A stretch of 64,000 nucleotides of DNA, taken from assembly GCA_017410375.1 (NCBI GenBank), contig JAFQQW010000016.1, positions 62,001-126,000 on the forward strand, in the 5' to 3' direction. This document shows, piece by piece, positions 12,850 to 63,337 of this stretch. How positions within the stretch are numbered: the first letter of the stretch is position 1; each line of letters starts with the position of its first letter. A model generated the notes under the pieces. That model worked only from the letters and a program-made list of their open reading frames with translations. It had not been told where the DNA came from and did not search any database. Made by a program: the position numbers and the translations under genes. The stretch comes from Clostridia bacterium (GTDB lineage Bacteria; Bacillota; Clostridia; RGIG6154).

Positions 12850-12932
12850 GCGGATGTGATGGAATTGGCAGACATGCAAGATTTAGGTTCTTGTGCGCAA
12901 GCGTGGGGGTTCAAGTCCCTTCATCCGCACCA
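12850..12932 (+). tRNA. tRNA-Leu (anticodon TAG)
   Basis: Cloverleaf with acceptor stem GCGGATG / CATCCGC, anticodon stem CAAGA / TCTTG around loop TTTAGGT (anticodon TAG), a short class II variable arm, T arm GGGGGTTCAAGTCCC, and encoded CCA at 12930-12932. Reads CUA leucine codons. Confidence 0.95.
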
Positions 12933-12933
12933 G

Positions 12934-12973
12934 AAAAACCGACAGTAATCGACAGATTTCTGTCGGTTTTTTA
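12934..12973 (+). terminator. Terminator of tRNA-Leu, first copy of a duplicated hairpin
   Basis: AAAAACCGACAG ... CTGTCGGTTTTTT hairpin right after the tRNA CCA. A near-identical copy at 13219-13256 has the outermost pair of the stem switched (C-G to G-C). Confidence 0.85.
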
Positions 12974-13172
12974 GCTAAATTCGCTTGACGGCGAGCTAAA
13001 TGTGCAAAGGCACGCTAAATTACTTCGTAGCTAAATTGACCTTCGGTCAGCTATTTGCGAATTTAATTTAGCTGTTTCGTTAGAAACAATTTAGCTATTG
13101 CGAAGCAATAATTCCGCTTTGCAATTTATTGCAAAATTTAGCTAATACGAATTTATGACGGCTGAAAGCATT
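12971..13172. repeat. Hairpin array, module 1 (AGCTAAATT core)
   Basis: No gene here. The core AGCTAAATT occurs several times (near 12972, 12994, 13014, 13029) and in inverted form AATTTAGCT (near 13066, 13089, 13136). Each pair of cores is separated by a short perfect hairpin with a 3-6 base loop and its own stem: TCGC/GCGA, GTGC/GCAC, TAC/GTA, TGACC/GGTCA, GTTTC/GAAAC, ATTGC/GCAAT. The whole array could fold as one long stem with many small arms. Confidence 0.8.
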
Positions 13173-13218
13173 GATATAACTGTGTTTTTGCGTAAATCCT
13201 ATAACAATATCCACACCA
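13173..13218 (+). repeat. Repeat unit ending in CACACCA, copy 1
   Basis: About 46 bases that align with 13457-13502 (shared blocks TAAATCCTATAACA and CACACCA). Like the tRNA-Leu 3' end, each copy ends in CCA and is followed directly by a terminator-like hairpin, which suggests decayed tRNA 3' ends. Confidence 0.55.
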
Positions 13219-13256
13219 GAAAAAGCGACAGTAATCGACAGATTTCTGTCGCTTTT
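13219..13256 (+). terminator. Second copy of the tRNA-Leu terminator hairpin
   Basis: AAAAAGCGACAG ... CTGTCGCTTTTT; the same hairpin and loop as at 12934-12973, with one compensating base-pair change in the stem. Confidence 0.75.
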
Positions 13257-13440
13257 TCAACGAAATACACCTGACGGCGTGTGAAATATTGCTACGCAAC
13301 ATGAAATAGCTTCGCTGTGAAATATTTGCTTTGCAAATGTTAAAGGCGTATTTCATTTCACAGAAAACAAAGTTTTCTATTTCACAATTTACGCAGTAAA
13401 TTATTTTATATCGAGCAAAGCAAGATATTTCATTTAAAGT
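13257..13440. repeat. Hairpin array, module 2 (GTGAAATA core)
   Basis: Same design as module 1 with another core. GAAATA or GTGAAATA occurs near 13262, 13281, 13302 and 13318, and inverted as TATTTCA near 13349, 13379 and 13427. Between cores are hairpins with stems ACAC/GTGT, TTGC/GCAA, AGC/GCT, TTTGC/GCAAA, GAAAAC/GTTTTC and AATTTAC/GTAAATT. No coding potential seen. Confidence 0.8.
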
Positions 13441-13456
13441 ATTTACCAAAACCCTT

Positions 13457-13502
13457 GCTATTACTGCATTTTAAAATAAATCCTATAACATCACTCACAC
13501 CA
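13457..13502 (+). repeat. Repeat unit ending in CACACCA, copy 2
   Basis: Second copy of the unit at 13173-13218, about 284 bases downstream, again followed by a terminator-like hairpin. Confidence 0.55.
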
Positions 13503-13527
13503 AGTCACCCAATGAGGGTGACTTTTT
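13503..13527 (+). terminator. Third terminator-like hairpin after a CACACCA
   Basis: GTCACCC / GGGTGAC stem with AATGA loop, followed by TTTTTT. Confidence 0.75.
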
Positions 13528-13700
13528 TGTTTTGCGGGACTTGAACCCTAAGAGGGCAACGAACGTTAAGAAAACGATTGATAATCGTTTTTAGTAAGTT
13601 GGTGCGATGACGGGTGCCGAAATTGTAAAATTTCGACATATAACTTAATCATAAAATCCTTTTACTTGATGTCAAAAAAAGAAGAAAAACGGATGCTGAT
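13528..13700. other. Non-coding stretch with an inverted T-arm fragment and two hairpins
   Basis: Bases 13536-13548 read, on the minus strand, GGGTTCAAGTCCC, identical to the T arm of the nearby tRNA-Leu. Further hairpins: AAAACGATT/AATCGTTTT near 13572-13593 and GAAATT/AATTTC near 13619-13634. No gene seen. Confidence 0.5.
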
Positions 13701-30380: not shown

Positions 30381-30409
30381 ATGTTAGAAAATAGCTTTAA
30401 ACGACAAAT

Positions 30410-30695
30410 AGATGTCCGAAACGGACATCTCAGACTGTCGAAAAAGTCGTTCTACCGCAAGCAAAGAACTATTTGTTATTCTGAGCGAAGCGAAGAATCT
30501 CCGGTTTGAACAGATGTTGAATGGAGCGGAATCCATCGAGGATTCCACTCCATTTCTTGCTTTTTGTCAATTTGAACTCTACCGTACCTCTGTACGCCGA
30601 CGAATTCAAATTGACAAAATATAACTTCCTTTTTCGCACTCTGACAGCGTGTCGATAGGTTTATCGACACGCTGAGATGTCCGAAACGGACATCT
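30410..30695. mobile_element. MITE-like palindromic element, non-coding
   Basis: About 286 bp with no coding capacity. Both ends carry the palindrome GATGTCCGAAACGGACATC, extended inward as CTCAGACTGTCGA on the left and, in inverse, CTCAGCGTGTCGA on the right, giving about 32-bp imperfect terminal inverted repeats. Inside are four more palindromes: TTCTGAGCGAAGCGAAGAA near 30479, AATGGAG...CTCCATT at 30520-30554, TTTTGTCAATTTGAA paired with its inverse at 30562-30619, and AGCGTGTCGATA/TATCGACACGCT at 30646-30673. Its right edge overlaps the stop codon of the AraC gene. Confidence 0.65.
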
Positions 30696-31557
30696 ATTTT
30701 TTTATGGCACTTCTAAGTTCAGCAGGTGTCATACCTTCTTGTTTTTTAAAGAATTTGCTTAGGGAATATCGGTCTGAAAAGCCCGTTTGAGATGCTATTT
30801 CAGATAAAGTAAACTCTGTTTCTAATAGTAATTTTTTTATTTGTTCTGCTTGAATTTGTGCTTTTATTTCACGGAACGTCATGCCCGTTTCTTCTTTAAA
30901 AATACGACTCAACTGTCTTTCGCTCATGAAAAAATTTTCTGCGACATCCGAAAAACGCATGTCGTTTAAAAGATTGTCACGGATATATTTTCTGACATGA
31001 CTTGTAAGTGTGCCGTTTTTCATTTTCGGCTCAATCGAAGTGTTTCGAACATCTGCAATTACATCCGTAAGTTGCACAAAGATATTGTACAGGCAATTTT
31101 GTGAAAAATTATAACTTTCAAAATAGTTTTCCGTCGCACACTTTAATATACTCTCAACCATGATTATCGCTGGTTCTGGCATTTTTTTAACGCATGCAAT
31201 TTTAGCGCTGTGAATAAGTGATGATGATATTTTATGATCCTCGACCGCAAAACCCCAGACAAATTTTTCAAAATCATCTGAAGCATTTGTAAAGCGATGT
31301 GATTTGTTAGGCGGAATCAGGATAAAAGTATTTTTCGACGTGTTTAATATTTTGCCGTCAATTTCGAATTCACCCATCCCATTAAGACATAGATGTAGTT
31401 CAAAAAAGGAGTGCCTGTGTTGTTTGTAGTTCCATGTTTCAAACTGATTAAATGCCACTCTGCACCAATATGTTTTCAAGTGTATTGGTTCAATACACTT
31501 ATTCCAGTCAATTTTACTGATTTTTTTGGAGGCAAGAACTCTTTGCGATTCAGTCAT
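30694..31557 (-). CDS. AraC family transcriptional regulator, downstream of malQ
   Basis: 287 residues: cupin-like sensor domain with KQHRHSFFELHLCLNGMGEFEIDGKI, then two helix-turn-helix motifs (MRFSDVAENFFMSERQLSRIFKEETG and FTLSEIASQTGFSDRYSLSKFFKKQEGMTPAELR). The start follows AGGAG and lies 10 bases after malQ, so it is co-transcribed with malQ. The TAG stop coincides with the edge of the palindromic element at 30410-30695, so the very C-terminus (AIKK) may have been reset by insertion. Confidence 0.9.
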   Translation of the reverse strand: MTESQRVLASKKISKIDWNKCIEPIHLKTYWCRVAFNQFETWNYKQHRHSFFELHLCLNGMGEFEIDGKILNTSKNTFILIPPNKSHRFTNASDDFEKFVWGFAVEDHKISSSLIHSAKIACVKKMPEPAIIMVESILKCATENYFESYNFSQNCLYNIFVQLTDVIADVRNTSIEPKMKNGTLTSHVRKYIRDNLLNDMRFSDVAENFFMSERQLSRIFKEETGMTFREIKAQIQAEQIKKLLLETEFTLSEIASQTGFSDRYSLSKFFKKQEGMTPAELRSAIKK

Positions 31558-63164: not shown

Positions 63165-63195
63165 CTTTTAAACAAAAGAATAATCAAAAACATCC

Positions 63196-63304
63196 TATTT
63201 CTTTCATCCAGACTATACTGTCGGCTTTGGAATCTCACCAAATCAGCTTATCTTAAGCTCGTGGGCTATACCACCGGTGGGGACTTACACCCCGCCCTGA
63301 AATA
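63196..63304 (-). ncRNA. FMN riboswitch (RFN element)
   Basis: On the minus strand the conserved RFN blocks appear in order: CAGGGCGGGGTGTAAGTCCC, CACCGGTGGTA, AGCCCACGAGC, GATTTGGTGAGATTCC, AAGCCGACAGTATAGTC, TGGATGAAAGAA. A closing stem pairs TATTTC with GAAATA. It should turn off ribU when FMN is abundant. Confidence 0.95.
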
Positions 63305-63337
63305 TTGTAATTATTATAGCATATTACCTGCGCATTG

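Follow-up and report, generated by a model that had tools for sequence, protein, structure and literature searches.

Two modules downstream of a tRNA-Leu gene

The window analysed here is a 64,000-nucleotide stretch of the genome of a member of the Clostridia. Between the CCA end of a tRNA-Leu gene and a third terminator it contains two tandem modules, M1 (12933-13218) and M2 (13219-13502; Table 1). Both have the same order, i.e. a terminator hairpin with A5 and T5-6 tracts, direct cores and then inverted cores, both sets interspersed with mini-hairpins, and a tail ending in ...CACACCA. The M1 cores begin at 12973, 12994, 13014 and 13029 in direct and at 13065, 13088 and 13135 in inverted orientation, the M2 cores at 13260, 13281, 13301 and 13317 (direct) and at 13349 (double), 13378, 13402 (degenerate) and 13426 (inverted). 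The first-pass annotation had described two modules with direct and then inverted cores and mini-hairpins after tRNA-Leu; this architecture is real and its coordinates are exact. It had also stated that the modules share their design and differ in their cores. This is correct, but the common part extends to the terminator hairpin (85% over 79 nt) and the tail (74% over 54 nt). Both modules begin after CCA in the manner of tRNA-type units, with an A-tract/T-tract hairpin followed by a CA-core; the CA-core site of M1 reads TTTTTTAGCT, with the C missing. No open reading frame for IVP/S23p is present in 12933-13502. IVP denotes the 23S-rRNA intervening-sequence protein (PF05635/TIGR02436), a four-helix bundle.

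Table 1. Features of the tRNA-Leu locus in window coordinates
Feature	Position	Strand	Remark	Basis
tRNA-Leu (anticodon TAG)	12850-12932	+	CCA at 12930-12932, presumed insertion point	ARAGORN, Rfam
M1 left end, terminator hairpin GAAAAACCGACAG..CTGTCGGTTTTTT	12933-12972	+		inverted repeat; relatives match in place and layout
M1 left half, four direct AGCTAAATT cores with mini-hairpins between them	12973-13049	+	GACCTTCGGTC at end	sequence, repeats, core count, fold
M1 turn-round segment	13050-13064	+	GCGAATTTA able to pair with first core and hairpin	sequence, fold
M1 right half, inverted AATTTAGCT cores alternating with mini-hairpins	13065-13145	+		sequence, repeats, fold
M1 tail	13146-13218	+	last letters ATCCACACCA	repeat in common with M2 tail
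M2 left end, terminator hairpin	13219-13257	+	one C-G pair of the M1 stem changed to G-C	inverted repeat
M2 left half, direct GTGAAATA cores and mini-hairpins	13258-13328	+		Rfam Gut-1 RF01706 match
M2 right half, inverted TATTTCAC cores and mini-hairpins	13349-13435	-	part-decayed	sub-threshold Gut-1
M2 tail	13436-13502	+	last letters CTCACACCA	repeat in common with M1 tail
Third terminator AGTCACCCAATGAGGGTGACTTTTTTG	13503-13530	+	presumed original terminator of tRNA-Leu	sequence; order of unit(s), then other terminator in relatives

Past the last terminator, a stretch at 13531-13625 (GCGGGACTTGAACCCTAAGAGGGCAACGAACG..) opens with a reverse-complement tRNA T-arm. Similar stretches, some of which close with a tRNA 3' end, lie near arrays at five other loci (L008, L038, L052, L132, L207), and this is perhaps another tRNA-associated repeat. 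Elsewhere in the window, 40-nt inverted repeats at 30406-30445 and 30660-30699, each with the palindrome AGATGTCCGAAACGGACATCT in it and 214 nt apart, might be the borders of an invertible segment or of a small element. An FMN riboswitch (RF00050, 116.5 bits) was found at 63192-63308 on the minus strand.

Fold, mini-hairpins and the match to Gut-1

The best exact 7-mer core of M1 occurs seven times, as compared with a maximum of five in 200 dinucleotide shuffles, and that of M2 six times, which equals the maximum of its 200 shuffles. The number of hairpins by itself does not exceed that of dinucleotide shuffles in M1 or M2; the excess lies in core repetition and in the global fold. The whole M1+M2 region folds with z = -12.8, and none of 20 shuffles was as good. 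M1 alone folds well on both strands (z = -6.7 on the plus and -4.8 on the minus strand), with left cores paired with right cores and hairpins jutting out at the junctions. The M2 fold is weaker (z = -2.3), and M2 therefore looks decayed; some hairpins of its right half are imperfect. The earlier claim of a perfect hairpin between every two cores does not hold for the right half of M2.

Across the family, 65 arrays yielded 272 inter-core segments, 212 of them distinct. Hairpins are formed by 201/272 segments versus 14% of shuffled ones. Symmetric scoring of 192 distinct segments with 854 stem positions gave 739 Watson-Crick pairs, 26 G-U and 14 A-C (p = 0.08 for G-U versus A-C). An apparent G-U excess in a first wobble count was discarded, as on inspection it came largely from core-hairpin junctions. 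Hairpin sequences vary while pairing persists, and the stems covary; the first-pass annotation had held that stems without covariation would count against it. The near-lack of G-U pairs leaves room for an origin of the stems by copying at the DNA level. Loops of the form C(TNC)G occur in 39 of 124 first-half hairpins and loops of the form C(GNA)G in 39 of 178 second-half hairpins of the whole family, each against a background of about 0.6%. Loop type is tied to core orientation, and the swapped orientation is practically never found. Therefore, the repeat unit is an oriented core plus hairpin that reverses its direction at the array centre. The functional form of the array may be either RNA or DNA. 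One IVP-bearing relative (L104) has a much enlarged array with about 12 near-identical AGCTAAATTCGCCTGACGGCG units, which suggests a recent tandem expansion.

The left half of M2 matches the Rfam Gut-1 covariance model with 55.5 bits, the membership threshold being a score of at least 50 bits. The right half reaches 33.8 bits on the minus strand, which is below threshold, and M1 gave no match to the model. As both M2 halves match on opposite strands, the Rfam model covers one arm of a two-arm array, and Gut-1 annotations in Rfam are half-elements. The likeness consists in GUGAAAU cores that alternate with three small hairpins. In contrast, the opposite arm, terminator, tail, CCA site and IVP link all lie outside the model. 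Gut-1 has been described from human gut metagenomes only, as a non-coding RNA and not as a mobile unit (Weinberg et al. 2010, PMC2864571), whereas here it is part of a proposed mobile unit. Gut-1 and IVP tend to occur in the same genomes, as counted in 147 members of the class (12/16 versus 31/131, Fisher p = 8e-5), and in several of them they stand side by side (e.g. G113:C56, G041:C14). The highly branched RNA that the first-pass annotation had considered is thus supported as a predicted fold and by the Gut-1 match.

Dispersed copies, IVP genes and the tRNA CCA end

M1 has nine clear further copies in this genome. Two of them again follow a tRNA gene and terminator (tRNA-Met, L005; tRNA-Ser, L006), and others, not at tRNAs, lie after different palindromes. 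There is also a third core family, ATGAATTG, with four copies, one of which is located directly upstream of the sole IVP gene of the genome (G000:C48:13096-13410, L059). That gene directly follows its array and has an in-frame TGA. Since the only IVP gene has another core type and an in-frame TGA, M1 and M2 have probably lost their mobility and are now relics. A close relative of this IVP in genome G004 (L060) lacks the in-frame TGA, so that intact copies exist. The arrays are not unique to one assembly but present in many.

An IVP-alignment scan over 84,980 genomes gave 80 clostridial loci with 76 usable upstream regions. Arrays, called by a simple core count, were found upstream of IVP in 58 of these 76, as compared with 10 of 642 windows taken from these loci as controls; as the 80 loci were picked by similarity to mostly array-linked IVPs, this share of 76% is not unbiased and may be inflated. 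Upstream of IVP genes the core types are AGCTAAAT (the M1 type, 13 loci), GTGAAAT (the M2 type, 13 loci) and three others. Hence, the arrays that precede IVP genes include core types identical to those of M1 and M2. Mapped onto the IVP tree, the five types require four changes, which is the minimum, and core type tracks IVP clade with no exception among the labelled loci. G004 alone has three core types, each paired with the matching IVP clade. Several loci (e.g. L126) have a promoter-like TTGAAA-17-TATAAT between array and IVP. L136 comprises, in this order, tRNA-Leu, a terminator, an array closely related to that of M2, a promoter and IVP. In Ruminococcus bromii 5AMG, an IVP element with GTGATAT-type cores follows tRNA-Arg (L120).

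Complete units are homologous from the tRNA CCA through the last IVP codons, and unrelated ORFs lie beyond. M1/M2 have the left end and the array in common with the IVP elements, but the right ends differ; a PSSM scan for the IVP 3' end as the source of IVP-less tails gave scores mostly not above shuffles. Arrays outnumber IVP genes by 24 to 7 in G124 and by 16 to 4 in G079, the excess to be expected of a family in which many copies are non-autonomous. An IVP with an internal deletion in G124 (L190) is an intermediate form. At eight loci (L121, L123, L127, L143, L144, L145, L148, L150) the IVP stop overlaps or nearly touches the start of another ORF downstream (ATGA), and AAAGGAG often stands within the last IVP codons there, as if the element gave the next gene a ribosome-binding site. 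The only solved IVP relative found by sequence, 2RLD, is an uncharacterised protein. PF05635 also weakly matches a protein of genome G003 (L065), which from its context appears to be the accessory protein of a diversity-generating retroelement.

The insertion site is best seen at tRNA genes. Among the 80 IVP loci, 23 of 33 tRNA genes lie on the same strand as IVP and at most 480 bp before it; they belong to 21 of 75 loci, and the layout there is nearly always CCA, A-tract hairpin, T-tract, CA-core. In G124, 17 of 18 M2-type units begin exactly after CCA. Thirteen of its M2-type units adjoin tRNA genes, which represent nine isotypes (Met, Lys, Leu, Glu, Arg, Gln, Pro, Ser, Tyr); the others follow the tail of a previous unit, a 3' fragment of a tRNA or some other CCA. 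The first-pass annotation had asked whether the arrays always follow tRNAs. This applies to the M2-type units of G124, but not to several M1-type copies in the present genome. The terminator GCATCGACTTTGTCGGTGC is found in G124 at tRNA-Gln, at tRNA-Pro and in a tandem copy; G079 has it at tRNA-Cys. Since one terminator occurs at different tRNAs, it belongs to the unit and travels along with it. The tRNA-Tyr gene of G124 is followed by two tandem units and then another terminator, which is exactly how the window is arranged. IVP-less units in three genomes of two families have a conserved tail, GCATC..TTC..CCA (L005, L041, L052, L184, L185 and twice in L188), which in most cases directly precedes terminator-like sequence. 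The tails of M1 and M2 have the CACACCA end but lack the GCATC..TTC motif.

In the congener G079, the orthologous tRNA-Leu(CAA) and tRNA-Gln have no M2-type unit directly after CCA, and at the orthologous tRNA-Tyr another array family is in place. G079 and G124 yielded no clean empty site whose two flanks are both intact, the downstream flanks being rearranged or carrying other repeats. For the tRNA-Leu of the window, the search for an empty site led to pflB in one congener, but with other genes upstream. Insertion directly after a tRNA CCA with a carried terminator appears in no paper among the literature searched, and the IVP-array link is not described in it either, a literature that included few subscription papers. 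Five elements of G004 that lie off tRNAs (L036, L039, L049, L051, L068) have the palindrome ATATGCCGAGTGTCCTTAAGGACACTCGG on the left and its counterpart on the right. Their outer flanks resemble the two halves of a terminator stem, which suggests insertion into hairpin loops, as in 23S intervening sequences.

Known systems, rival explanations and a proposed mobile element

Intervening sequences (IVS) of 23S rRNA are recognised by their excision from RNA by RNase III. They occur with IVP in place of helix loops and are suspected of mobility (Coxiella IVS, PMC4990558). The complete relatives of M1 and M2 encode the same protein family (PF05635, TIGR02436; S23p/IVP), and in both cases a structured element with inverted repeats at its borders is sited in structured RNA genes. 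However, the units of the window follow tRNA-Leu, and their relatives lie after tRNAs or between protein genes rather than in 23S helices; moreover, the arms are repeat arrays, many copies are dispersed, and M1/M2 have no ORF. Being in the wrong place and without an ORF, M1 and M2 are not IVS in the strict sense. With MITEs and REP/BIME elements they share a short, structured, non-autonomous, dispersed form and occurrence in tandem groups. They differ in that no transposase-type terminal repeats were recognised, the linked autonomous form bears IVP, and the array units have an exact tRNA-CCA boundary and their own terminator. The units would behave in the manner of a MITE, with transposition itself putative. 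A CRISPR array was discarded, in agreement with the first-pass annotation, as the cores are only 8-9 nt long and inverting and the spacers are hairpins. A phage link was likewise rejected, with few IVP matches (six in IMG/VR, two in phage records).

A set of 17 plasmid IVP loci came from Cyanobacteriota, Bacteroidota, Chloroflexota, Spirochaetota and Clostridia. These genes tend to have tandem heptamers before and their reverse complement after them. The best own inverted match is at least 29 in 11 of the 17 loci versus at most 18 in their far flanks, though between-locus matches can be high too, some cyanobacteria sharing repeats. The arrangement is like that of the cyanobacterial heptamer repeats (STRRs, TAACTGA), for which a repeat-binding protein has been supposed as a possible mobile element or partner (PMC4679880); IVP is a candidate for this protein. 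The heptamer arrays differ from the clostridial ones in lacking mini-hairpins and in flanking IVP on both sides, both arms lying upstream of it in the clostridial arrays. The plasmid IVP genes often stand amid defence clusters with type I restriction, DISARM drmD/MmeI, N-6 methylase/helicase or cas1-cas2 genes (L161, L165, L169-L174, L176).

Four other explanations were weighed. The arrays could be a functional RNA of the Gut-1 type, transcribed as a host regulator or 3'-trailer RNA and dispersed by mere gene duplication. The Rfam match, the conserved pairing of inter-core segments and promoter-like boxes ahead of some non-tRNA copies speak for it, but it sits badly with the presence in one genome of numerous copies that share a terminator though they lie at unrelated tRNAs and genes, with cores that track the IVP clade rather than the host genome, and with stems that have hardly any G-U pairs; we consider it unlikely. 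Somewhat less likely still is a pair of array RNA and IVP like a type III toxin-antitoxin system, the orphan arrays being antitoxin relics. Such a pair would suit a repeat array directly upstream of an ORF of about 105 amino acids with its own promoter, the strict core-clade pairing and the restriction, DISARM and cas gene surroundings on plasmids. Yet none of the IVP homologues (23S IVS proteins and, weakly, the diversity-generating retroelement accessory protein) is known as a toxin, orphan arrays exceed IVP genes in both genomes counted above, and CCA-exact insertion would not be predicted.

A purely mutational origin, in which snap-back or template-switching replication makes core-hairpin repeats without selection or dedicated machinery, fits the almost purely Watson-Crick stems and the mirror-image loops, which suit inverted copying of one oriented unit. 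As it leaves the IVP linkage, the core-clade match, the CCA boundary and the conserved tails unexplained, it is largely refuted as a full account and in this form very improbable; it may nevertheless be the route by which the stems arose. Least credible of all is a decayed tyrosine-integrase island at tRNA-Leu, for which ATCCGCACCA / ATCCACACCA / CTCACACCA would be the att direct repeats. The tRNA site and the repeated tRNA-like end would accord with it, but att-like copies of the tRNA 3' end on the downstream side are not above chance in 29 tRNA-adjacent loci, and one unit family occurs at nine tRNA isotypes.

From the anatomy, the clade-specific cores, the CCA left boundary, the carried terminator, the tandem stacking, the covarying hairpins and the CCA-ending tail of many IVP-less units, as read in the DNA, we propose with reasonable confidence that M1 and M2 are tandem non-autonomous copies, with the IVP gene missing, of a clostridial family of IVP-associated, tRNA-CCA-targeted mobile elements. 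The distribution of the units points to their mobility, and IVP would bind the array. The mobile structured element envisaged by the first-pass annotation is thus favoured by dispersed copies in this genome, one terminator at different tRNAs, tandem stacking and conserved ends. A complete element consists of a terminator hairpin or other palindrome, a fold-back array, a promoter and the IVP gene. The array, as RNA or single-stranded DNA, would fold such that left cores pair with right cores and mini-hairpins protrude at the junctions, and could then serve as the cognate binding platform for an IVP oligomer. Copies would go in at the tRNA CCA, where the carried terminator would maintain termination of tRNA transcription, and a unit end that again reads CCA would permit stacking of further units. 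Production or joining of the copies would fall to an enzyme that is presumably supplied in trans.

More tentatively, and as a possibility to which we give somewhat less than even weight, this may be a new class of mobile element. It would be made of IVP and a cognate fold-back array that inserts exactly at tRNA CCA or a tRNA-like end with its own terminator, possibly via tRNA or trailer RNA, and IVP with inverted short-repeat arms would be its general form. The model predicts a pairing of IVP to repeat. If it is true, the IVP and inverted-arm form would explain the cyanobacterial heptamers, Gut-1 and other dispersed short-repeat families, and it would place an orphan RNA (Gut-1), a widespread yet uncharacterised protein (TIGR02436/PF05635) and dispersed short repeats of obscure origin within one testable frame.
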